45,646 nucleotides of DNA, from positions 1 to 45,646 of the forward strand of contig JAWCKG010000011.1 in the NCBI GenBank assembly GCA_038852285.1, in the 5' to 3' direction. Positions 11,249-44,814 of the stretch are shown here, in pieces. Numbering within the stretch: the stretch's first letter is position 1; every line of letters starts with the position of its first letter. The notes below the pieces were generated by a model, which was given only the letters and a program-made list of their open reading frames with translations, did not search any database and was not told the origin of the DNA. The position numbers and the translations under genes are program-made. This stretch comes from Candidatus Bathyarchaeia archaeon (GTDB lineage Archaea > Thermoproteota > Bathyarchaeia > 40CM-2-53-6 > DTGE01).

Positions 11249-11824
11249 TTAGCCAGCCTCTAAAACGGGTTGAGCGCAGCCACATCGAGGACAGTACACA
11301 GCCTCCCAGCCCAACGCCTCTCCGCAACCCACGCAATATTTGCGGAACGCCATGCTCCTCAACGCGATCCCAACCTTCTGTCGTTCGGAGGGGCCCCGCA
11401 TCCTCTCCGGTCTGGCGTCGACTACGATGGTTCCGGCGAGCCTGTCCCCCAGCCTCTGCTTGTTAGCGGACCTTAAAATTGAAATAATTCCTACGATGTA
11501 TAGTCCTGGAAGCATGTCGACAAGCCTTAAAAAGTTTCTAACGAAAGCCGCGCCGAAACCGCATGGACCACCCCTCTCCCTCAACACCTTCAACCTGAGA
11601 AGCCTCTTGCCCAGCGAAGCGCCTGAAAAGCCCTCCATAACAGTAAAGTATCCAACTTGGATGAAGAGGTAGATGCCCAACGCCACGTACAGCTCCCCCA
11701 ACGGTAAAGGATCACCGAACAAGGCCATGTTCAATCCTGAGAACAACGCGGCTAACACAAAGCTGTCGACGAGGTAGGCTAAAAGCCTCGGCCCCAAACC
11801 CTTACATTCAAAGGCCTCCAACAT
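11249..11824 (-). CDS. RDD-family membrane protein with C-terminal zinc ribbon
   Basis: A 191-residue protein. It starts with the RDD-type GPRLLAYLVDSFVLAALF helix (the Arg and Asp of the family), followed by a second helix (ELYVALGIYLFIQVGYF) and a third near SILRSANKQRLGDRLAG. TSAGKR-like motif GASLGKRLLRLKV is present. The C-terminus adds a zinc ribbon: CVGCGEAL and CPRCGCAQP (four Cys in two knuckles). RDD proteins are poorly understood membrane proteins, some linked to Na+ or Li+ export. The cytoplasmic zinc ribbon suggests a sensing or docking role. It converges on the phosphoesterase gene, leaving 19 bases between the stops. Confidence 0.88.
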   Translation of the reverse strand: MLEAFECKGLGPRLLAYLVDSFVLAALFSGLNMALFGDPLPLGELYVALGIYLFIQVGYFTVMEGFSGASLGKRLLRLKVLRERGGPCGFGAAFVRNFLRLVDMLPGLYIVGIISILRSANKQRLGDRLAGTIVVDARPERMRGPSERQKVGIALRSMAFRKYCVGCGEALGWEAVYCPRCGCAQPVLEAG

Positions 11825-11972
11825 CCTTCAACTTTCATCAAAGATTTTGAGCTTAAACCAAGCTTATTTTCCACTCAACTTAAAAACTTATTTCACCGAA
11901 TACGGATTAAAATCCTAGAAAAGCCATGTCAATGATTCTTCACCTACCCCCCGCGTCCAGGTTGCTGAAACC

Positions 11973-12662
11973 CTAACCGGATGAGAAACCAACGTTGGTC
12001 AGCTTTAGGCTTCGAGTTTTCCACCTCACCGTGAAATCCCCGTTTAAGCTAAAGATCAAGCCGTCAAGGTAATCAGGCCACCCCTCTTCTTCATGCCTCA
12101 CCTTAAGATAGAGGTCCCTAACGGCCAATATGTTCCAGTCATGCGACACATACACATGCAACGCAAACGAATTGTCCTCTTCTTGAAGAAGGCTTTTTAC
12201 CTCAGCTATGAGCTGTGAAGTCACTTTCCACGGGTCATCCATGACCCTTTCATCCACCTCGCCATTCAACCATCTTCTCGCGAAAACCTCGAACCCCACT
12301 TTTTCAATTTCCCTGACGATTTCACGGGGCTTAAGCATGAATCCAGGGCTGAGGAACTCCCTCACCCCCATGAACTGAACAGATCTCCCAGCCGAGGATG
12401 CCCCTTCAAATATGTGTTTCGCCGTGTCTCCGCATCTTGGAACCGGACTGTGGTAAATTTTAATCAACCTCCCCTCTGGAAGGGCCTTCCCAAACTCTAG
12501 GGACGCCTCCAAACCCTCTGGCAAGAGTGGAAGATGATAGTAATCGTCGCCTGTGGGATCAGACCGGGCGGCGTGGCGTATGAGCGCAGCCACCCTTCTG
12601 GAAGGATTCCGTTTGAGCAAATCTACAAGTTGGCCTCCGCTGTCCTTTCCCTTCAACTCCAA
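11973..12662 (-). CDS. Histidine phosphatase superfamily protein
   Basis: A 229-residue protein with the branch-1 histidine-phosphatase core. LIRHAARSD is the phospho-His loop (normally R-H-G/A-x-R), IYHSPVPRCGDTA supplies the second Arg, and HVYVSHDWNI supplies the second catalytic His. The middle FEVFARRWLNGEV region is a helical cap. Members range from phosphoglycerate mutase to nonspecific phosphatases, so the substrate is unknown. The N-terminal 25 residues before the core are unusual. It lies 76 bases downstream of the AOR gene on the same strand, and linkage is uncertain. Confidence 0.85.
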   Translation of the reverse strand: MELKGKDSGGQLVDLLKRNPSRRVAALIRHAARSDPTGDDYYHLPLLPEGLEASLEFGKALPEGRLIKIYHSPVPRCGDTAKHIFEGASSAGRSVQFMGVREFLSPGFMLKPREIVREIEKVGFEVFARRWLNGEVDERVMDDPWKVTSQLIAEVKSLLQEEDNSFALHVYVSHDWNILAVRDLYLKVRHEEEGWPDYLDGLIFSLNGDFTVRWKTRSLKLTNVGFSSG

Positions 12663-12738
12663 CCCCTTTCAACTACGCCTTAGCGTAACGTCAACCATTG
12701 AAGGCCTTTCTCTTCTCAACGCGGATTACCGCTCACCG

Positions 12739-14628
12739 TTAAGTGTGGGGAAGATGCTGGACGGCCCATCCGACATCAAGTTCGTAGAGCTTTTCAGCTG
12801 TGGGGACACCCTCATCATCCCAACCCATCATCCTATAATAGATCTTCTTACACTTCTCCAATTCATCGCCAGTGATTCTTTCACCCGCGATCGGCCCTCG
12901 GCTGAATGGTTGAGCGAACCTACCTGGGAGGCGGTCATCCTCCGCTGTAAATCCCTCCCTTACGTTGAAAACCCTGGCCAACGTGGCCGCCCTCTCCCCT
13001 ATCTTCATCAGCTCCCATGTGGTCGTGTTCCACCCTGTTATGGCGTTAACCAAGCGAGGCGTATTATCGTAGAACCAAGGCGTAAAGTAGCATATCACGG
13101 CGGAGTTCGTGAAATGCCTCCAATTGGACGCGTAAACCAGTAACCTGACCTTCTCGGGATCAAGAGAGTTAGCTGGCATAGGCTCCAAGACCCCCAACGC
13201 CTGTATGGCCTTCATGCTCTCACCCCAACCCTGAAACAGGGTATCATGCAAGTTGTGGCAGTGATCGGCTCCAGTGGGTGAAACCGCGTAACCGACTCCA
13301 AGCCCCTTTTTCAAGCGTGGTTCATGCATAGGAATCTCCAACCCCTTCACGTGCATCGCGTACTCGTAAGCGTTTCCACCGATCTTCTCAGCAGCCCTCC
13401 TCACACCCTCACCTAACATCTGTCCAAGGCCTCGCCTCTCACCTATCATCCTCACCGTTTCAACCATGGCCTCCGCGTCGCCGAACTTAAGGGAGAAGCC
13501 CCCAGCATCCTCCAGGCCTATTAACCCTTTCATATAGCATTCCATGGCGAAGGCTACGCATACACCGGTCGAAATTGTGTCCAGCCCATAGGCGTTGCAT
13601 ATTTCATTGGCCTTCGCGATGGCCTTCAGATCCTTTACCCCGCAGTTAGATCCTAAAGCGGCTAATGTCTCGTATTCAGGTCCACCGTACACCGGGTCGA
13701 CGAGGTATGGCTCATCAACCTTAACGGTTCGCTTACAGTTTATCACACATCCGTAACAGGTGTGTCTGCCTGTTAAGATGGTTTCAACCATCCTTTCCCC
13801 TGAGATTTCCTCAGCGCCCTCAAACTCGCCCTCAGCGAAGTTTCGGGTCGGTAAACCGCTTGAAGCGTTCAAGCTGAGCAATCCTCCACCGGTCCCCGTT
13901 TCCCTCAGGCTTTTCAACGTCCTGCCGATGGGCAACTCCAAGTCCGGGTTATCCGACACCCATCGAGCCAGCTCCCTCACCGTTTCAGCGTCCGCCATTT
14001 CAGGCGCATGAGCACCACGAACAACAACGGCTTTCAGGTTTTTAGAACCCATCACCGCCCCCATGCCGGTTCTCCCAGCGAAGTGTGTGAGGTCATTCGC
14101 GATACAGGCGTACCTAACCCCTTTTTCACCAGCAGGCCCTATCAACGCCGTTCTAATGTTCCTTCCCAACTCGCTTCGAAGCAGCTCGTCAGCCCGGCCT
14201 GTCACCAAACCCCACAGGTGCTCGGCGTCCCTGATCTCCACCTCCCCATCGTGAACCCAAAGGTATGAGGGGTTTTCAGCCCGACCTGAGATGACTATGG
14301 CGTCGAACCCAGATCTCTTCAACTCAGAACCCCAGTAACCTCCAACCTCCGAGCAACCAAACCCATTAGTGAGGGGGGACTTACCGCCGACGCTGTTCCG
14401 CCCTGAACCTGTAAATGGATGGCCTGTCATAACGCCTGAGGCGAATATCAGAAGGTTCTCTGGGCCCAGAGGATCCGCGGAAGGCTTAACCTCCCTCAGC
14501 AAATAGTAGGCGATTAAGGCTTCTCCGCCAAAGTATTGTCGATAAAACCTTTCAGGTGGCTCATCAACGGAAATCTTACCATCGGAGAGGTCGACTCTAA
14601 GAACCTTCCCACAATACCCAAACGTCAT
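12739..14628 (-). CDS. Aldehyde ferredoxin oxidoreductase family protein
   Basis: A tungstopterin enzyme of the AOR family, about 629 residues. YCGKVLRVDLSDGKI opens domain 1, and SGRNSVGGKSPLTNG and AGRTGMGAVMGSKNLKAV bind the pterin phosphates. CYGCVINC provides three Cys of the [4Fe-4S] cluster, and AVICYF near residue 520 is the probable fourth. Such enzymes oxidise aldehydes to acids and reduce ferredoxin. The aldehyde range (AOR, GOR or others) cannot be told from sequence alone. A frame opens at ATG 14646, but family members begin close to Gly-Tyr-x-Gly-Lys, which favours ATG 14628. A TATA-like TTTAA stretch stands about 27 bases upstream, suggesting a leaderless message. Confidence 0.94.
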   Translation of the reverse strand: MTFGYCGKVLRVDLSDGKISVDEPPERFYRQYFGGEALIAYYLLREVKPSADPLGPENLLIFASGVMTGHPFTGSGRNSVGGKSPLTNGFGCSEVGGYWGSELKRSGFDAIVISGRAENPSYLWVHDGEVEIRDAEHLWGLVTGRADELLRSELGRNIRTALIGPAGEKGVRYACIANDLTHFAGRTGMGAVMGSKNLKAVVVRGAHAPEMADAETVRELARWVSDNPDLELPIGRTLKSLRETGTGGGLLSLNASSGLPTRNFAEGEFEGAEEISGERMVETILTGRHTCYGCVINCKRTVKVDEPYLVDPVYGGPEYETLAALGSNCGVKDLKAIAKANEICNAYGLDTISTGVCVAFAMECYMKGLIGLEDAGGFSLKFGDAEAMVETVRMIGERRGLGQMLGEGVRRAAEKIGGNAYEYAMHVKGLEIPMHEPRLKKGLGVGYAVSPTGADHCHNLHDTLFQGWGESMKAIQALGVLEPMPANSLDPEKVRLLVYASNWRHFTNSAVICYFTPWFYDNTPRLVNAITGWNTTTWELMKIGERAATLARVFNVREGFTAEDDRLPGRFAQPFSRGPIAGERITGDELEKCKKIYYRMMGWDDEGVPTAEKLYELDVGWAVQHLPHT

Positions 14629-36478: not shown

Positions 36479-37990
36479 TTAGGGTGGGAGTTTGAGGTTG
36501 GAGAATAGTTGACCCATCACCTGGCTTATCGTAGTCGGGTATATTCCCAGCAAAACGGTGATGAACGCCAAGACAATGATAGGGGCCAGCATCAGCGCCG
36601 GGGCTTCTGGTCCGCTGATTCTTAAGCTTGGCTTCAGCTCTCCGAAGAACATTCTCCGGAAGGCCCATAAACCGTATCCAGCTGTGATGATGGAGGATAT
36701 TACCGCTAGGGAGATAAGCCAAACCTGGGTTATGTTGGGAGCGAGCATGGAGGTTAACGCCGTTTTCATCGAGCCGGCGAACACGAAAACCTCTCCCCAG
36801 AATCCTACGAGAGGTGGCACGCCCGCCAGGCTGAGGAAGGCGATGAGGGTGGCTGTGGCCGTGTATGGCATCTTCCCCGCTAACCCTCCTAGGTCATCGA
36901 TGAGCCGGGTGTGGAAGCTGTGCATGAAGACCCCGGAAACCATGAAGAGAATCGCTTTGGCCAACCCATGGCTCAAGTATAGTACTCCGGCGCCCGTTAG
37001 CCCCAATGTGGAGACGGACGCCGCCCCTAAGAGGAGGTAACCCATCTGGCTGATGCTTGAGAAAGCCAATAAGCGCTTTAGGTCCTTCTGGGCGAGGGCC
37101 ATGAGTCCCCCATAGAACATGGTGGTGACAGCTAACCCCAACAGGGTGGTTGTGAAGCGTGAGTCCTTCATCACCACGGGAAAGGCGGTGTACGTGATTC
37201 GAATGGCCGCGTATCCCCCAATTCCGATCATGGCGGGTGAAAGCAGGGCGCTGATGGGAGTCGGCGCCTCCGCGTGGGCGTCGGGAAGCCAGTTGTGAAG
37301 CGGGAATATCGCCATCTTCACAAGCAATCCAAGGAGGATGAGGGATACGATTAGGGTGGTGAAGCCCGGGGGACCTGCCTTTAAGCGATCCGCGACTTGG
37401 AAGATTTCAAAGGTCCCTGAAGCATATTTGGTGAGCAACACACCGGCGAGAAGGGACAGAGCTCCAGCCTCAGTGTACATGAAGTATTTGAATGCGATGG
37501 CCTCCTTTCTCCCGGTTCCCCACACCGCGATCAAAGCCCACGAGGGGATTAGCATCAGCTCGAAGAACAGGAAGAAGGCTACCAGGTTGGTTGAAACCAC
37601 GGTTCCAACCATCCCCACAGCGTACAGAAGGTACAGCGCGTAATATGACTCTAAGTTTTCAGAGCCCTCCATGTAGTCGATAGAGTATAAGGCTATCAGA
37701 GCGGAGAGCAGGGATATGAGGAAGGCTATGGGGGAGCTGAACCCATCCGCCAGCAACGTGAACCTGTCTAAGAGAGGAGCCCAAGGATAGACGGCGGTTA
37801 AACCCTCTCCTAGGAAGCCTAGATAGATGCCGATGGAAATGTACCCGTAAATGATGGTGGGGTACATCATCGCCCCGAACACGATCCAACCCGCCCTATG
37901 CCTTAAATCCCGGCCCAACCATAGGACGAAAGGCGACGTGGCGGCGGGCACGATTAGGCTTTGCAGAATTAACCCCAACTCATCCATCAT
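36479..37990 (-). CDS. nuoM: Complex I NuoM-type antiporter-like subunit
   Basis: A 503-residue, about fourteen-helix membrane subunit. LFFELMLIPSWALIAVWG carries the conserved Glu of TM5, and PLHNWLPDAHAEAPTPISAL is the NuoM version of the central Lys/His loop region. These helices move H+ (or Na+) when the complex works. It is the last gene of the operon, eight bases after nuoL. Confidence 0.93.
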   Translation of the reverse strand: MMDELGLILQSLIVPAATSPFVLWLGRDLRHRAGWIVFGAMMYPTIIYGYISIGIYLGFLGEGLTAVYPWAPLLDRFTLLADGFSSPIAFLISLLSALIALYSIDYMEGSENLESYYALYLLYAVGMVGTVVSTNLVAFFLFFELMLIPSWALIAVWGTGRKEAIAFKYFMYTEAGALSLLAGVLLTKYASGTFEIFQVADRLKAGPPGFTTLIVSLILLGLLVKMAIFPLHNWLPDAHAEAPTPISALLSPAMIGIGGYAAIRITYTAFPVVMKDSRFTTTLLGLAVTTMFYGGLMALAQKDLKRLLAFSSISQMGYLLLGAASVSTLGLTGAGVLYLSHGLAKAILFMVSGVFMHSFHTRLIDDLGGLAGKMPYTATATLIAFLSLAGVPPLVGFWGEVFVFAGSMKTALTSMLAPNITQVWLISLAVISSIITAGYGLWAFRRMFFGELKPSLRISGPEAPALMLAPIIVLAFITVLLGIYPTTISQVMGQLFSNLKLPP

Positions 37991-37997
37991 GCAGCCT

Positions 37998-40043
37998 TTA
38001 ACCTCCTAACGCCAACCTGATCAGAATCAAAATCATCAGGATAAAGCCCAAGCTCATTCCCACCACGTTCAAGTTGAGGATTCCGGTATGGGTTCTCCTA
38101 AACCATCCTACCAGCCTTTGAGTAGACCCGGATAGGAAGGAGTTCACACCATCGATCGCCTTGGACTCCACCCCTCTAAACAGCCATCCAGCTGAGGCGA
38201 TGAAAGGCTCAAGCAGAGCTTGGTAGTAGAAGCGGTTAATGTACCATCGGTTGAAGAGGAAGGCCCTTAAAGACGCTAGGCTAGGCCTAATGGCCAGTAA
38301 CTGGTCAGCCGTCGGCCTACGCTTCACGTAGAGGAGGTAGGCCGGCGCCGCCCCGGCTATGAGCATGACGACGGAGAACGCTGTGACGATCCAAGCTGCC
38401 ATTGATCCATGAGTGGCGTGAGCTTCACCGAGGCCCAACACTTCACCGAGGAATCGGGCGAAAACAGCTTTTAACCAATCCCGAAACATGAACCCCGCTG
38501 CGCCGAACAGCACGGTTCCCGCGGCGAGCGCTAAATATGGGAGCTTCATGGCTGGAGGTGGATCATGGATGTGGACCCCCTCCTCTTTCAACGTTTTTAA
38601 CCGCTCGGTTTCAGGCCCATAAAAGGCCAAGCCGATCATCCTCACGGTGTAGAACGCCGTTACCGCCACCGTGAGGCAAGCTAATATGAACATCCATAGT
38701 TGCCCAGAGGTTAAAGCTGCCTCTAAGATGAGGTCCTTGCTCCAGAACCCGCTGAACAGCAGGGGGACGCCCATTAAGGAGAAGGCCGTTAAAACCGTGC
38801 ACCAGAAGGTGAGGGGCATGTAGCGTTTAAGGCCTCCCATATGGTAAAGGAACCTAGAGTGGCTGGCGTGGATCAACGCCCCGGCTGTTAGGAAGAGGGC
38901 TGCCTTAAACATGGCGTGGCTCATCAGGTGGAAGATGCCTCCCGTATAGCCTAAGAGGAATTCGGCGGTGGATCCGGCTACGCCGAGGGCGAGCATCATG
39001 TAACCCAGCTGGCTCACCGTAGAGTAGGCTAACACCTTCTTAATCTCCGTGGAAGCCATGGCTTGTGTTCCAGAAACAAAGGCGGTGACCACGCCTATCC
39101 ATGCCACAGTGTAGAAGAAAGTGATCATCTGGTTGGCGGAACCCGCGGTCCAAGCCGCTGTGTACAGCATGGGAAACAGCCTTCCCACCAGGTATACGCC
39201 CGCCTTCACCATCGTGGCTGCGTGGATCAAGGCGCTGACAGTGGTTGGACCGGCCATGGCGTCTGGCAACCACTCCATCAATGGTAACTGGGCTGATTTT
39301 CCCACCGGGCCGCCGAACATCAGGATGGCGGCGGGGGCCAACAACCACAGGGGAACCTTGAGAACAGCCCCCTCCTGGAGCTCAGTAAAGCTGAGCGTGC
39401 CCGCGTACGCGAGTATGATGAACACGCCGATGAGCATCCCCACATCCCCAATCCTAGTGGCTATGAAAGCCTTTAACCCACAGTGGGATGGCGGGTAGGC
39501 TTCTCGCCCCTCACCCACCCAGCATTTCAACCAATCCGCTTTCGAATCCCTGTACCAGAAACCGATAAGCGCATAGCTGCATAGGCCTACGCCCTCCCAT
39601 CCGAATAGGAGTTGGATGAAGTTGTCGGACATTACGAGGAGTAGCATGTTGCCTATGAAGAGGTTCATGAAGAACCAGTATCGGGTTAAACCTTCCTCCT
39701 TCTCCATGTAGGCTAGGGAGTAAACCATGATGAGCATGCTTACAATGGAAACGACGTTGGCCATGATGACGCTTAAGGGGTCCACGATCACCCCCGCCTT
39801 CACCGAGATGAGGGTTGAGCCGGGAACTTGAACCCAATCCACTTGGTTATGGATCAGCTCACCCCTCATCAAGTGTGGAAGTAGTAGGATGGTCATGAAA
39901 GCGGTGAGGATTGAAACGGCCACCGCGAAGTAGTCCCTCAACCTCCTATTGACGCGGGCGGCGAGAGGGGTCAACGCGGCTCCTATCAGGGGGATTATCC
40001 AGCAAAGCCACGCGGGCCAAACCCATTCGCTTGAAAACGCCAT
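37998..40043 (-). CDS. nuoL: Complex I NuoL-type subunit
   Basis: A 681-residue NuoL. LLFGWEGVGLCSYALIGFWY and LPLMEWLPDAMAGPTTVSAL are diagnostic of NuoL, and the extra C-terminal helices after residue 520 form the lateral arm that runs along the membrane domain. A cytoplasmic loop near residue 490 is rich in charges. It lies between the MrpD-like gene and nuoM with spacers of 3 and 7 bases. Confidence 0.95.
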   Translation of the reverse strand: MAFSSEWVWPAWLCWIIPLIGAALTPLAARVNRRLRDYFAVAVSILTAFMTILLLPHLMRGELIHNQVDWVQVPGSTLISVKAGVIVDPLSVIMANVVSIVSMLIMVYSLAYMEKEEGLTRYWFFMNLFIGNMLLLVMSDNFIQLLFGWEGVGLCSYALIGFWYRDSKADWLKCWVGEGREAYPPSHCGLKAFIATRIGDVGMLIGVFIILAYAGTLSFTELQEGAVLKVPLWLLAPAAILMFGGPVGKSAQLPLMEWLPDAMAGPTTVSALIHAATMVKAGVYLVGRLFPMLYTAAWTAGSANQMITFFYTVAWIGVVTAFVSGTQAMASTEIKKVLAYSTVSQLGYMMLALGVAGSTAEFLLGYTGGIFHLMSHAMFKAALFLTAGALIHASHSRFLYHMGGLKRYMPLTFWCTVLTAFSLMGVPLLFSGFWSKDLILEAALTSGQLWMFILACLTVAVTAFYTVRMIGLAFYGPETERLKTLKEEGVHIHDPPPAMKLPYLALAAGTVLFGAAGFMFRDWLKAVFARFLGEVLGLGEAHATHGSMAAWIVTAFSVVMLIAGAAPAYLLYVKRRPTADQLLAIRPSLASLRAFLFNRWYINRFYYQALLEPFIASAGWLFRGVESKAIDGVNSFLSGSTQRLVGWFRRTHTGILNLNVVGMSLGFILMILILIRLALGG

Positions 40044-40046
40044 TTT

Positions 40047-41600
40047 TCACCAACCTCCCAGCAATGTTCTCGAAACGGATTCAACCAAGCTGATCATGGG
40101 TCCTGGGGTTAAACCCACCAGGATGATGAGGGCCGCTAACAACACGATGGGGGCGACCATGGGTATTGGAGCCTCCTTCACCGCGTCCAGTCCGCTGGTG
40201 GGCTTCTTTACCAAGATCCTTTGAACCAGCCATAGGTAGTATGAGGCGGAGAAGACGCTGTTCAACACGACTAGGGTTGTGATGGTTGAGAGGAAGCCGT
40301 CGCCTGGGATGCCTAGGCCGCCGAGGATGATGAGGAGCTTGCTCCAGAACCCGCTGAAAGGAGGGATCCCGGCTAAGGAGAAGAGCCCTATGGACAGCGA
40401 GGCCCCAGTCCACTTCATCCTCCTTCCCACACCTTCCAGCGCTGAAATATCCCTAGTTTTAGCCTCGTGGAGGAAGCATCCTGAGCAGAGGAAGAGAAGC
40501 CCCTTGCCGAGGGCGTGGTTGAACACGTGGAACAGCCCACCAGTCGCCGCCAGCGCGGCTACTCCCAGCGCAGCCCTCGGTTCGACGGAGTAATACTTTG
40601 TGATGACGTATCCTCCGATACCTAGGCCTGTGATGATGTACCCTATGTTGACGACGCTGGAATAAGCGAGCAAGCGTTTAATGTCGGATTGGAGGAGGGC
40701 CATGAAGTTTCCAACGGTGAGGGTGAGGACGCCGAAAACCATCAGGAGGGCGCCGTAGTTGAAGGTCGTGGGGTTGAAGAGCGTGAACATGCTTCTTCCG
40801 ACGCCATATACTCCGGCTTTGATGACGACGCCTGAAAGCATGGCGCTGATGGAGCTGGGAGCAGCTGGGTGGGCGTCGGGAAGCCAGGTGTGGAGGGGGA
40901 CGATGGCCGCGGTTACCCCGAATCCCGCGACGATCACCGCGATGAGGAGGTACAGGGTGATCGGGCTTACGCCTCCCTGGGCGATCAACGCTGATCTGAT
41001 TAACCTAAAGTTGACGGTTCCCGTCATCCCGTAGAAGATGGATACTCCATATAGGATCATGAGGGATCCAAGGGTACTCATGATCAAGTACTTGAACCCC
41101 GCCTCAACCGGCTCCCAAAGATGCTTTCTGAAGCTGACCAAGGCGTAGGATGAGACGCACATCATCTCCCAGAATACGAATAGGTTGAAGAAGTCGCCTG
41201 AAAAGGCTACGCCCACCATGCCCGCTACGAGGGTTAAGAGCAACGTGTAGTAGGAGTCCTGTCCAGTATCCTTTTCCATGTACCGTGTGGAGTACACGGC
41301 GACCAGTAATCCCAGTCCGGTGAAAAGCCACGCAAAGTATATGGATAACAGGTCGACATACAACTCCACTCCTCCGTTGAGAGCTGGAAATCCAGCGAAT
41401 ATGTATTTAGCTGGACCTAAGGCTTGAATGTCATGATAGAGGAACAGGAGCGTGTAGAATGAGAGGGCGAGTGCTAGGATGCACACGATCTCCCTGACTC
41501 GCTCCGCTTTAAAGGCCCTGCCGACGATGGAGGCGACTGGGGTGAGGGCTGCGCCTCCTAGGAGGATCAGTATGGGCTGGATGATCAGCGGAGGGTTCAT
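40047..41600 (-). CDS. MrpD-like antiporter subunit in the NuoN position
   Basis: A 517-residue, roughly fourteen-helix subunit. The TM5 Glu is in FNLFVFWEMMCVSSYALVSF, and the TM7-8 region reads PLHTWLPDAHPAAPSSISAM then SGVVIKAGVYGVGR, the wording of MrpD/MnhD rather than NuoN. MrpD is a Na+/H+ antiporter subunit and an ancestor of complex I pumps. It lies after nuoK and before nuoL. Confidence 0.88.
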   Translation of the reverse strand: MNPPLIIQPILILLGGAALTPVASIVGRAFKAERVREIVCILALALSFYTLLFLYHDIQALGPAKYIFAGFPALNGGVELYVDLLSIYFAWLFTGLGLLVAVYSTRYMEKDTGQDSYYTLLLTLVAGMVGVAFSGDFFNLFVFWEMMCVSSYALVSFRKHLWEPVEAGFKYLIMSTLGSLMILYGVSIFYGMTGTVNFRLIRSALIAQGGVSPITLYLLIAVIVAGFGVTAAIVPLHTWLPDAHPAAPSSISAMLSGVVIKAGVYGVGRSMFTLFNPTTFNYGALLMVFGVLTLTVGNFMALLQSDIKRLLAYSSVVNIGYIITGLGIGGYVITKYYSVEPRAALGVAALAATGGLFHVFNHALGKGLLFLCSGCFLHEAKTRDISALEGVGRRMKWTGASLSIGLFSLAGIPPFSGFWSKLLIILGGLGIPGDGFLSTITTLVVLNSVFSASYYLWLVQRILVKKPTSGLDAVKEAPIPMVAPIVLLAALIILVGLTPGPMISLVESVSRTLLGGW

Positions 41601-41604
41601 ACCT

Positions 41605-41916
41605 TTACCACCTTAACCTTCTAAGCTTTCTCAGGTCCAATGTTCCATAGTGTCTGTAGGCATGGATGATTAAAGACAAGGCGACGGCAGCCACGGCGGC
41701 TCCCACGGCTATTGACGTGAAAACCATTGACTGAGCGAGCGGATCTGAGACCCCTCCTCTGAACCCGAAGGCTAGGATGTTCAGGTTCACGGCCACTGTT
41801 ATGACTTCGAGTCCAATAATGGTCTTCACAATGTTTCTGCTGGCCATAACTGCGTATAACCCGATGAGAATTAAGATGGCTGAAACCACAGGGTAGAGTG
41901 GAATGACATTCACCAT
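41605..41916 (-). CDS. nuoK: Complex I NuoK subunit
   Basis: A 103-residue three-helix NuoK. NIVKTIIGLEVITVAVNLNI contains the Glu of TM2, and AQSMVFTSIAVGAAVAAVAL is helix three. NuoK links the proton-transfer half channels. It is 2 bases downstream of the J' gene and 4 bases upstream of the MrpD-like gene. Confidence 0.92.
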   Translation of the reverse strand: MVNVIPLYPVVSAILILIGLYAVMASRNIVKTIIGLEVITVAVNLNILAFGFRGGVSDPLAQSMVFTSIAVGAAVAAVALSLIIHAYRHYGTLDLRKLRRLRW

Positions 41917-41918
41917 GA

Positions 41919-42185
41919 CTATCCTACCTTCATCTCGGTTTCACGAGTGTTTTTTTCCCTTCTGAATAAGGCGGCGACGGCTGCGCTGGCTGAGAAGATG
42001 AGGAAAGCTTGGGCCAGTATGTCTAGTCCCCGGAAGGTCCAGTAAAACTTCTCCACCTCTGGTCGATAGGGTAGCTGTGGTAGCGGGAACCCGTAAAGAA
42101 GGTTGCCGAAGGCTAAGACGAATGCTAAAATTATCGACACGATCACAGCCGCCAATATGGCTTCGAATTGATCTTGACCGTTCAC
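41919..42185 (-). CDS. NuoJ C-terminal-half / MbhE-like subunit
   Basis: An 88-residue two-helix protein. Helix one is LAAVIVSIILAFVLAFGNLL, followed by a loop (PLPQLPYRPEVEKFYWTFRG), then LDILAQAFLIFSASAAVAAL. The FRG-x-D-x-L-A pattern is like MbhE/MrpB modules, and also like the second part of a split NuoJ (as in methanosarcinal FpoJ). It overlaps the N-terminal NuoJ gene by four bases (ATGA), which supports a split nuoJ. Confidence 0.75.
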   Translation of the reverse strand: MNGQDQFEAILAAVIVSIILAFVLAFGNLLYGFPLPQLPYRPEVEKFYWTFRGLDILAQAFLIFSASAAVAALFRREKNTRETEMKVG

Positions 42186-42424
42186 TCCAACCCTCCTCCC
42201 AGCGTGTGTAAGGTCACTAAGAAGAGCACGGTAACCGCGCCCGCGTAGACGAGAAGTTGAAACACGGCCACGAAGGGCGCGCCTAGAAGGTAATAGATCA
42301 TGGAGACAGAAACGTTAAAGGCTGCAAACAGCGCGATGGCCCTGGTGAGGTCTCGGACGCCGATGGTGGCCATAGCCGTGGCGATCGTCACGGCGACCAA
42401 CACGTAGTGAAACGCTTCAATCAA
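42182..42424 (-). CDS. nuoJ: Complex I NuoJ subunit, N-terminal half
   Basis: An 80-residue two-to-three-helix protein. YYLLGAPFVAVFQLLVYAGA then VTVLFLVTLHTLG is the NuoJ signature of helix three, near the pi-bulge. Full NuoJ is about 170 residues, so the rest must come from the next gene. It lies 19 bases downstream of nuoH. Confidence 0.88.
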   Translation of the reverse strand: MIEAFHYVLVAVTIATAMATIGVRDLTRAIALFAAFNVSVSMIYYLLGAPFVAVFQLLVYAGAVTVLFLVTLHTLGGGLE

Positions 42425-42443
42425 ACTTTCCTTACCCTCCTTG

Positions 42444-43412
42444 TTAGATTAACATCCTCACAACGAGTAGTTGAAACAGGCTGATGGGAACTAGGTATTT
42501 CCATGAAAAAGACACCATTTGGTCTATTCTCAGCCTCGCGAAGAGGCTTCTGACCGCGGAGAGAATGTACAGGACTAATATTGTCTTTAAGATGAAATAG
42601 ATGGGTTTTAACAGAGGCTCTAAACCCTGAATCATGGGTCCGTTTGGGCCGCCTAGGTAGAAGGTGGCGGCGAGTCCTGAGATGTAGAAGAGCTCAAGGT
42701 CGCCGGCCAGCCGGAACAGGGCTAGCTTTCTTCCACTGTACTCGGTCAGCCACCCCGCCACGATTTCTTGCTCCGCCTCGGGTATGTCGAAGGGTATTCT
42801 CTCGAGCTCCGCTTGGGCCGCGATGAGGAAGACGGCGAATCCTAGGGCTTGAGGCCCTAGGATGAACCACCAAGAGGCTTGAGCGTTCACCACATCGGAT
42901 ATTCTAATTGACCTAGCGGCCATGAGGACGCCTATCAACGCGATGGTCAGTGGGATTTCGTATCCGATTAGCTGGTTGAGAGCCCTCTCTCCGCCCAAGA
43001 AAGAGAATCGGTCTACGGAGGATAAGCCAGCTAGGAAGACGATGACACAGAAGATTGTCAAGATGGCGACGGCAACTATGGCGTCTCCGTAAAAGGAGAC
43101 GACCCCCGCTTCGGAGGCGAAGGGGAGCATAAGTATGCCGGTGAGGAGGGTGGCCACGGCGAATATGGGTACGAGGTTGAAGAAAGGTTTATCCGCGGCC
43201 TCAGGAGTAATATCCTCCTTCGACAATAGCTTGATGAAGTCCGCAAGAGGTTGTAGAAATCCCGAAGGCCCAGTATACAGGGGGCCTACCCTGTTCTGAA
43301 ACTTGGCGTAGAATTTCCTGTCCAACCACTCATATACTAGGGAGGCGAGTATGGCGAAAATGAACCCTGGGAACACAAGAATCTTCAGCCATACGATTAG
43401 CCATTCTACCAT
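42444..43412 (-). CDS. nuoH: Complex I NuoH subunit
   Basis: A 322-residue, eight-helix NuoH. QNRVGPLYTGPSGFLQPLAD then FIKLLSKEDITPEAAD is the quinone-chamber loop, and RIPFDIPEAEQEIVAGWLTE with EYSGRKLALFRLAGDLE is the conserved loop contacting the quinone. NuoH anchors the peripheral arm. It starts two bases after the nuoC stop. Confidence 0.96.
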   Translation of the reverse strand: MVEWLIVWLKILVFPGFIFAILASLVYEWLDRKFYAKFQNRVGPLYTGPSGFLQPLADFIKLLSKEDITPEAADKPFFNLVPIFAVATLLTGILMLPFASEAGVVSFYGDAIVAVAILTIFCVIVFLAGLSSVDRFSFLGGERALNQLIGYEIPLTIALIGVLMAARSIRISDVVNAQASWWFILGPQALGFAVFLIAAQAELERIPFDIPEAEQEIVAGWLTEYSGRKLALFRLAGDLELFYISGLAATFYLGGPNGPMIQGLEPLLKPIYFILKTILVLYILSAVRSLFARLRIDQMVSFSWKYLVPISLFQLLVVRMLI

Positions 43413-43414
43413 TT

Positions 43415-43807
43415 TTAATCCCGCCTCTGAACCTTGAAATCCTTTCTCAACGGGTAAGCGTCCTCAGGCCAATCCTCGGAGAGAACCAGCCTCTGCAGAT
43501 TAGGGTGACCTCTAAACTTCACACCTAGCAGGTCGTAAACCTCCCTTTCGTAGAAAATGGCCCCTGGGATTAAATCCGTAATCGAGCTTACCACTGGGTT
43601 CTTCCGTTCCACGGCTGTTTTCACTGTTACCTCCACGCCGAGGCCGAACAGGTGGGTTAAAATCATCAAATCCTCACCTGTGTCCAACCCAGTAATAGTG
43701 GAAACATGACTTATCCCCATATCTTTCAACGTTTTCACAGCAGCCTTATAGTCTCTATTCTTCACCGTAACGAATATCCTCCTCTGCCTCGGCGTCGTGA
43801 CCTCCAC
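43415..43807 (-). CDS. nuoC: Complex I NuoC subunit, start codon uncertain
   Basis: A 130-residue NuoC from GTG 43807. RREIFVTV-like RRIFVTVKNRDYKAAV, ISHVSTITGLDTGEDL and FYEREVYDLLGVKFRGHPNL are the family's core, ending PLRKDFKVQRR. The frame is open a further 57 bases upstream, coding EPILAEKVKKALGKKAVEV, which fits the usual NuoC N-terminal helix, but only ATT (43849) or other non-start codons are available between the nuoA stop and GTG. Either the true start is unusual, or one base is missing, or GTG is right. It is 2 bases upstream of nuoH. Confidence 0.9.
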   Translation of the reverse strand: MEVTTPRQRRIFVTVKNRDYKAAVKTLKDMGISHVSTITGLDTGEDLMILTHLFGLGVEVTVKTAVERKNPVVSSITDLIPGAIFYEREVYDLLGVKFRGHPNLQRLVLSEDWPEDAYPLRKDFKVQRRD

Positions 43808-43862
43808 GGCCTTTTTCCCTAAAGCCTTTTTTACCTTCTCAGCTAAAATTGGTTCGCTCGTC

Positions 43863-44204
43863 TCAAACCCCCCTCAGCAAAAAGGATATGCTCAACAATA
43901 CGATGAGAACATATGTGACGGCCAGCAACCCAACCATCGGAACGGCGAAGACTGAAACGCCCATCGAAAGCGCTAACATGATGGAGATTACGTCAAGCAC
44001 AAGGAACAGCGCGGCGTAATTGAACAGCTTCACGCTCAGAGACGTCTTGATAGGTGGGAGATCCTCCCCACACGCGTAAGGCGAAACCTCCCCCTTACTC
44101 CCCTTGCTTGGAGGCGCAATCCTGCCCCCTAACGCGTAAATGACAGCCGCTGAGGCTAATGATAAAATGAAGGCAAATATGGGTGTACTTAACAGCAAGC
44201 CCAT
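43863..44204 (-). CDS. nuoA: Complex I NuoA subunit
   Basis: A 113-residue, three-helix NuoA. EVSPYACGEDLPPIKTSLSV has the conserved Cys of the quinone-gate loop (Y-A-C-G-E), and FNYAALFLVLDVISIMLAL has the LFxxxD of helix two. A frame opens at TTG 44270, but I choose ATG 44204: a TATA element lies inside the longer version, and GGGTG is close upstream. It is the first gene of the operon. Confidence 0.9.
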   Translation of the reverse strand: MGLLLSTPIFAFILSLASAAVIYALGGRIAPPSKGSKGEVSPYACGEDLPPIKTSLSVKLFNYAALFLVLDVISIMLALSMGVSVFAVPMVGLLAVTYVLIVLLSISFLLRGV

Positions 44205-44253: not shown

Positions 44254-44373
44254 CTTTTCCGAAGAGGCAACGTTTAAGAAGACGTTCATGTTCAGTTTAG
44301 ACGTCTCGGAGCTTTAATAATCTAACGTTCTAGGCATGAACGATTAAAGCCTCTCATCTTACTGGTTTACATT

Positions 44374-44814
44374 TTAAAACCATTTTACAGAACCTGTAGA
44401 GGGATTAGACGAGCTTTTGCTTAGCTTTAACGCTTTTCTATAATCCATGAGCGTGTTTATATTGTAAAATGTTAACAGCTAATCATCGTACTTCTTCAAC
44501 TCCAATAGGGGAATATACCTGATTCTCGACAGCTGAGCGATTACGGATTGTATTCATGCACCCTTGAGCTCATCTACACCTTTAATTATGTAGTTTTCAA
44601 ACACGAATCGGACATGGCTACCTTTTAAGACTCCCTCTATTCCTCCATCATCCCAACTTTTCAGTACCGCGGAAACTTTATAGGACACAAAGCTGGCGGC
44701 CTTTACTACCCTTTTTATAACCGGAATTCCGTCAACCGGTAGTAGAGCCTTACTCCTTCCGACGCGTGTACTCCCTCCACCCACTAATATAACCAATTCA
44801 ACAAATCTCGACAA
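44374..44814 (-). pseudogene. Decayed MobA-like nucleotidyltransferase
   Basis: From 44814 the reverse frame gives ILVGGGSTRVGRSKALLPVD and IPVIKRVV, the nucleotide-binding start of MobA/CobY-type enzymes. The 86-residue frame ends at a TGA (44556-44554). Past it in the same frame come SRIRYIPLLELKKYDD, a TAG, and FYNINTLMDYRKALKLSKS, the family's C-terminal N-x-N-T-x-x-D motif, ending at TAA 44374. Two stops interrupt one frame and about 60-100 middle residues seem deleted, so this is a dead guanylyltransferase-like gene. Confidence 0.8.

Follow-up and report, generated by a model that had tools for sequence, protein, structure and literature searches.

What has become of subunits B, D and I, and to what kind of enzyme do the remaining subunits belong? 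These are the questions raised by a complex I-type operon of a Candidatus Bathyarchaeia archaeon (assembly GCA_038852285.1), which lies on contig JAWCKG010000011.1 (C11), analysed here over its whole length of 45646 bases and called the window; the genome of which this contig forms part (G000) measures 1.72 Mb in 42 contigs and is 99% complete. The operon consists of nine tightly packed genes on the - strand, running from 44204 down to 36479 in the order A-C-H-J-J'-K-N-L-M. The answer that we regard as highly probable is that it would encode, together with C, the membrane arm of a [NiFe] hydrogenase of the energy-converting Hfo type, whose soluble catalytic core, B-D-I, would be supplied from another contig, the break between the two having fallen at the boundary of core and arm.

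The genes of the operon, with the evidence for each (E, expectation value), are the following:

43863..44204, - strand: A subunit (NuoA/FpoA-like, with a PYACGED loop); PF00507, above the gathering score
43415..43807, - strand: C subunit (30 kDa, NuoC/FpoC-like), here encoded with the membrane arm; PF00329, E 1.8e-32
42444..43412, - strand: H subunit (NuoH/FpoH-like); PF00146, E 1.5e-91
42182..42424, - strand: J, the first half of NuoJ (MbhD type); PF00499 and PF13244
41919..42185, - strand: J', the second half of NuoJ; so called from its place in the operon and because relatives conserve it
41605..41916, - strand: K subunit (NuoK/MrpC-like); PF00420, E 1.9e-25
40047..41600, - strand: N subunit (MbhH type; the MrpD-like gene of an earlier note on this DNA); PF00361
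37998..40043, - strand: L subunit (NuoL-like); PF00361, and TIGR01974 with 509.7 bits, above its cut-off
36479..37990, - strand: M subunit (NuoM-like); PF00361, and TIGR01972 with 317.9 bits, above its cut-off

The family matches for A, C, H, J and K and for the three antiporter-type subunits bear out the nine-gene order that the earlier note had proposed for 36479-44204. The genes are separated by 55 nucleotides (nt) between A and C, 2 nt between C and H and 19 nt between H and J, and elsewhere they overlap or lie at most 7 nt apart; these gaps are too small for B, D or I, which are therefore truly absent from the operon, as the note had also held, and have not been overlooked. The start of A is most likely at 44204, and not at the mechanically assigned TTG at 44270, because the homologues favor the former; in an alignment with eight relatives its PYxCG is kept.

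The missing genes are found elsewhere in the same genome. Its only gene for the 49-kDa subunit (D) is on contig C2, in a cluster B-D-I (L011:17574-19578) that holds the only copies of the three, while three other small-subunit-type genes, on C1, C3 and C5, stand beside large subunits of their own, of PF00374 type. Given that there is a single D, a single H, and that the three PF00361 genes of the genome are all within the window, the only evident partner of B-D-I is the window operon, and vice versa. Against solved structures, D matches MbhL first (E 1.3e-81), then HycE, and then Nqo4; it carries the four [NiFe]-binding cysteines, aligned with those of MbhL, in the motifs ERICGIC/CGICNVAH (L1) and DPCMCC/DPCMCCMDR (L2), these cysteines being invariant in 18 of 18 aligned sequences, and it has Lys and Gly at the positions aligned to His38 and Tyr87 of Nqo4, which we take to be residues with quinone roles. 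B carries GCNGCDIE, with the hydrogenase-type CxxC motif that is present in 95 of the 96 loci with a [NiFe] D (the sole miss is cut by a contig end), whereas all nine loci with a D that lacks the cysteines (Cys-less) have CC, and I carries two CxxCxxCxxxC ([4Fe-4S]) motifs. For maturation, the genome has HypD, HypC and HypF as well as a protease of HycI type; it also encodes subunit A of an A-type ATP synthase, whose score of 832 bits falls short of the curated cut-off. Thus, the two possibilities that had been offered as alternatives, that B, D and I are encoded elsewhere and that the complex joins a hydrogenase-like peripheral module, are true at once; a simple rearrangement, with nuoBDI beside other nuo genes and NuoN elsewhere, was looked for and is not what is found.

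As regards the arm, the proposal that NuoN had been replaced by an MrpD-like protein does not hold, since the gene in question is the orthologue of the N that closes the operon in the clusters of relatives, placed here between K and L, and its best solved relative is MbhH (6cfw_H, E 5e-80). H is closer to the H chains of NDH-1/complex I (E 1e-58) than to MbhM (1e-25). In alignments of 67 L rows and 46 M rows, the window L and M keep the Glu of transmembrane segment (TM) 5, the Lys of TM7 and the Lys/Glu of TM12, all of them residues with roles in pumping, as are the Glu of TM5, the Lys of TM8 and the Lys of TM12 that N keeps. At the TM7 position, however, the window N has Thr, as do 9 of the 81 distinct N rows, all from the window's arm clade (the N of the window, G001, G005, G010, G059, G040, L099, L133 and L157), which may mean a different mode of working for one of the three ion channels. 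Upstream of A, at 44554-44814 on the - strand, there is a short open reading frame (ORF) of 86 amino acids resembling the nucleoside triphosphate transferase MobA, which matches less than half of the domain and is perhaps a remnant.

The separation is not peculiar to one assembly. With D searched in 38 genomes of the order, it is common to three genomes in two families, G000 and G001 belonging to the same one and G010 to another. In G001 and G010, B-D-I stands apart from A-C-H-J-J'-K-N-L, and in the latter both loci are on one contig of 623 kb, at 341 kb and 40 kb, with about 300 kb between them. The arm order A-C-H-J-J'-K-N-L recurs in G001, G010 and G005, so that the arrangement of the window is not due to chance; M follows L in G000 and G001, whereas G010 and G005 have it at another place. 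B-D-I is flanked in the same way in the three split genomes, with two small ORFs of the Lrp/AsnC ligand domain before B and, after I, a convergent FrhB/FpoF-like gene within 60 nt. The trees of D and H both group the split genomes, which the L tree does not resolve as one group. The two-locus arrangement is new, although the Hfo kind itself has already been described: no earlier report of a split Hfo was found in the literature searched, which covers few subscription papers. Two ideas concerning D were rejected, namely that it contains selenocysteine, suggested by a TGA inside some of the matches (for example, in G003 and G042), as the D proteins that were read have plain cysteines in both motifs, and that the CxCC motif is special to the split lineage, as it is present in 32 of 103 D proteins.

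Where exactly the break has fallen can be judged from sister lineages. Clusters of B-C-D-I without A and H are found in G003, L088, L090, L092, L101, L108 and the Cys-less f2 family, and the arms A-H-J(-J'-K-N) of G061, G062 and G064, to which L090, L092 and L101 belong, respectively, are without B, C, D and I, as are the f2 arms; the genomes of L088 and L108 yielded no H. Unlike these other split lineages, that of the window has C in the arm operon. Because the sister lineages keep B-C-D-I apart from A-H-J-K-N, the arrangement is best read as a break along the boundary between soluble core and membrane arm, C having later moved into the arm operon. The claim that precisely B, D and I had been skipped thus stands in so far as the three are absent here, but they are better understood as part of a separated B-C-D-I. 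On a tree of 112 D proteins (16 from split loci, 89 from joined ones and 7 not classed), five changes are counted, four of them among [NiFe] D. Automatic labels had given 11 changes; the gene maps revealed that four labels in Aminicenantes were errors of ORF overlap, and these were relabelled, while in the recount four rows with different gene orders were left out and two f2 rows were added by hand. Before trees and counts were made, L079, L082, L085, L086, L093, L104, L130, L167 and L170-L172 had been dropped as duplicates or for want of the genes concerned, together with short first-look loci and ORFs under the length limit.

Other explanations have to be set beside this one. That the real chromosome has the two loci together, and that assembly or binning parted them, is scarcely conceivable: the genome is indeed a draft in 42 contigs, but the 2 nt between C and H are within one contig, and the break recurs in G001 and on the single contig of G010. 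A respiratory complex of the Fpo/Nuo type, reducing quinone or methanophenazine, with rearranged genes, would agree with the gene set A to N and with the NDH-1-like character of H, L and M, and is nevertheless highly improbable, given that the four cysteines of D and the CxxC of B are both missing from the Cys-less relatives, that D is nearest to MbhL, and that maturation genes are present. It also seems quite improbable that the operon of the window does without B-D-I and either serves as an ion/proton antiporter or has some other soluble partner. The contact subunits C and H sit in the arm operon, the other small subunits of the genome are already paired, and cores and arms co-occur in G000, G001, G010, G061, G062 and G064; in its favor, Mrp antiporters are related complexes without a redox core, and in G005, which is 98% complete, the arm A-C-H-J-J'-K-N-L is present (L075) and a matching B-D-I was not found. 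This last case also weighs against the hydrogenase that we propose, as do the absence from the N of the window's clade of the TM7 lysine, thought to be important for pumping, the lack of an accepted Pfam match for J' (DUF6338 falls below the cut-off), the weak match of A to its own family PF00507, and the L2 motif DPCMCCMDR, which has C where the printed pattern allows A, G, S or T, at a non-ligand position that is C in the same 32 of 103 D proteins, the ligands being unaffected.

Two further alternatives would leave the hydrogenase standing and change what is made of it. To the first, according to which the split is neutral operon decay in an otherwise ordinary Hfo, with no effect on regulation or exchange, we would give slightly less than an even chance. 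Operons do break up, M is alone in G010 and G005, and the f4 genomes have yet another order; yet among the 16 core loci labelled as split, B is with D and I in 16, A in none and C in 13, and there were at least five changes on the D tree, from which it follows that the same partition recurs, and the flanks of B-D-I are conserved in three genomes. The other, that the enzyme is mainly a hydrogenase and pump driven by F420H2, fed by the FrhB/FpoF-like protein encoded beside B-D-I, we consider rather unlikely. That gene is within 60 nt of I in G000, G001 and G010, and a gene of its family comes after I, on the strand of I, in the Cys-less f2 loci and in L058, L091, L096 and L101. However, FrhB-like genes occur in just 17 of the 110 places searched (109 loci and the flank in G000), the gene is convergent in the split genomes, and therefore not co-transcribed with B-D-I, and FrhB proteins also serve other enzymes.

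Within the f2 family, L174, L176, L178, L180 and L188 have a Cys-less B-C-D-I followed by the FrhB/FpoF-like gene on the same strand, a cluster that, from its genes, resembles the core of an F420H2 dehydrogenase standing away from its arm. In L101, an FrhB-like protein fused to CBS domains (11705-13267) adjoins the B-C-D-I core.

If core and arm can be encoded apart, have they also been inherited apart? In the trees of D and H, the Cys-less proteins, including those of G059 and G040, form one clade (Shimodaira-Hasegawa-like approximate likelihood ratio test, 100) away from the window, whereas in the trees of N, L and M, G059 and G040 are with the window's lineage (support 86, 99 and 99). Forcing the Cys-less rows together was rejected for N (p 0.0039), L (0.0008) and M (7e-8), and forcing the split genomes with G059/G040 was rejected for D and H (about 3e-6 each); in G003, D is with the window's lineage and N and M are with its own order, the reverse groupings being rejected. 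These were quick trees without bootstrap, with groups chosen after the bit scores had been seen, and with the ORFs that were long enough (29 to 35 of 38 names). The core and the arm of G059, and likewise of G040, share one contig (L186, L187), so that binning is not the explanation there; those of G003 are on different contigs, although a matching I and D tail are present in its congener G017. In G063, one locus is a hydrogenase core A-B-C-D-H-I-J-K, with no N, L or M within the 19 kb that were read, and another pairs a Cys-less core with an arm J-J'-K-N-L-M (L199 and L200), possibly two cores for one arm.

The conflict between core and arm trees in some relatives points to module exchange and suggests that core and arm may have been inherited and swapped as modules. 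The complex of the window itself was first suspected of being chimeric, as its L, M and N gave much higher scores with G059/G040 than with arms from its own order, an idea that was dropped when the N tree gave the arm the same neighbors (Methanomethylicus and Nezhaarchaeota) as the window D and H. Given these shared neighbors, it is more probably G059/G040 and G003 that have the mixed complexes, with a direction of transfer that is at most conjectural. A broader proposal, which we put forward tentatively and hold to be possible rather than probable, is that in Bathyarchaeia and their kin the pump arm and the catalytic core would still be separable cassettes, the same type of arm serving with a hydrogenase core in the window's lineage and with a Cys-less, respiratory-type core in G059, G040 and G063, the last of which also has a hydrogenase core, and a hydrogenase core of the window's type being found in G003 with the arm of another lineage. 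If so, the assembly from modules that is supposed for the origin of complex I would still be under way today, and one arm would possibly serve alternative cores in a single cell.

How, then, would such an enzyme work? The sequences themselves show which genes there are, the [NiFe] ligands, the presence of single copies, the conservation of the split and the conflict between trees; what can be said of the assembly of the products of the two loci, of the direction of the reaction, of the ion and of the electron donor is a proposal built on the genes. Electrons would enter via I, from ferredoxin and through its two [4Fe-4S] clusters, with F420H2 perhaps as a second donor by way of the FpoF/FrhB-like protein encoded beside B-D-I; B would hand them on to the [NiFe] site in D, where protons would be reduced to H2, or the reverse; and the resulting change at D, H and A would drive ions through K, N, L and M, by a coupling that would involve H, A and J as well as these four and is such as is supposed for Mbh and complex I. 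Carried on separate genes, core and arm would be open to separate regulation and to exchange between lineages. How a core like that of hydrogenases and an arm like that of antiporters came together in complex I has long been asked, and a complex with core and arm encoded apart, among whose relatives the trees of the two conflict, offers natural test cases of which subunits form an exchangeable unit. Moreover, such genes are easily annotated as nuo, in which case the H2 metabolism of sediment archaea can be missed.

With which of the known systems should it be classed? The whole is, as far as function can be read from sequence, a [NiFe] hydrogenase of the energy-converting Hfo kind, whose membrane arm has the full complex I set and which is encoded in two loci. 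Loh, Herve and Brune (2021; PMC7886697) give the name Hfo to an 11-subunit hydrogenase of Bathyarchaeia with the Fpo gene order, and state that no enzyme of subgroup 4g had been biochemically characterised. An Hfo is also reported for Bathyarchaeum tardum M17CTs, which is kept as an enrichment (PMC10477458). The enzyme of the window organism shares with it the subunit set, all eleven Fpo/Nuo subunits A, B, C, D, H, I, J, K, L, M and N being present (J in two pieces, J' by position), as well as the [NiFe] cysteines in D, the absence of an NADH module from the cluster, and the archaeal class. It differs in that Hfo, as described (PMC7886697), forms one cluster in Fpo/Nuo order, while here B-D-I and A-C-H-J-J'-K-N-L-M are apart and N comes before L; on account of the two loci, we call it a split-locus variant and not a standard Hfo, one-cluster order being a feature of the original description and not of the enzyme as such. 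The D of an Hfo would be expected in or near hydrogenase subgroup 4g; in the trees made here, the D of the window organism groups with D proteins of Bathyarchaeota (some of them), Methanomethylicus and Nezhaarchaeota, away from most of the [NiFe] D proteins of its order, in which other genomes have the order A-B-C-D-H-I-J-J'-K-L-M-N with a [NiFe] D (L056, L059, L061).

In a survey of the 80 best loci from a scan of named genomes, taken together with the relatives, and with J and K assigned at low scores, A accompanies [NiFe] D in 75 of 101 loci, and the full set is in one locus in 51 of 101, some of them in bacterial phyla such as Aminicenantota and Omnitrophota. L113, L121, L126 and other bacterial loci have full Hfo-like sets with a [NiFe] D (DPCICCAER), A, and the order antiporters-J-K-A-B-C-D-H-I. 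A [NiFe] Hfo-type cluster is also seen in L104 (JALHTG010000072, isolate PFL18; the same as G006:C49), in a metagenome-assembled genome labelled PFL18, a label that perhaps, at a guess, comes from the Polar Fox Lagoon study, which states in its abstract that hydrogen metabolism was hardly found (PMC9534799).

The Mbh of Pyrococcus furiosus (6cfw, group 4d) resembles the enzyme of the window organism in that D is nearest to MbhL, N is nearest to MbhH and J is in two pieces; unlike Mbh, however, the window operon has A and three antiporter-type subunits, its H is nearer to that of complex I, and no domains of the MrpE/F/G type are found among its nine proteins. With Fpo, the F420H2 dehydrogenase, and with Nuo/complex I, it has in common the subunit set A, B, C, D, H, I, J, K, L, M and N, and it departs from both in that its D keeps the [NiFe] ligands, the His and Tyr of the quinone site are replaced, and its B has CxxC and not CC.

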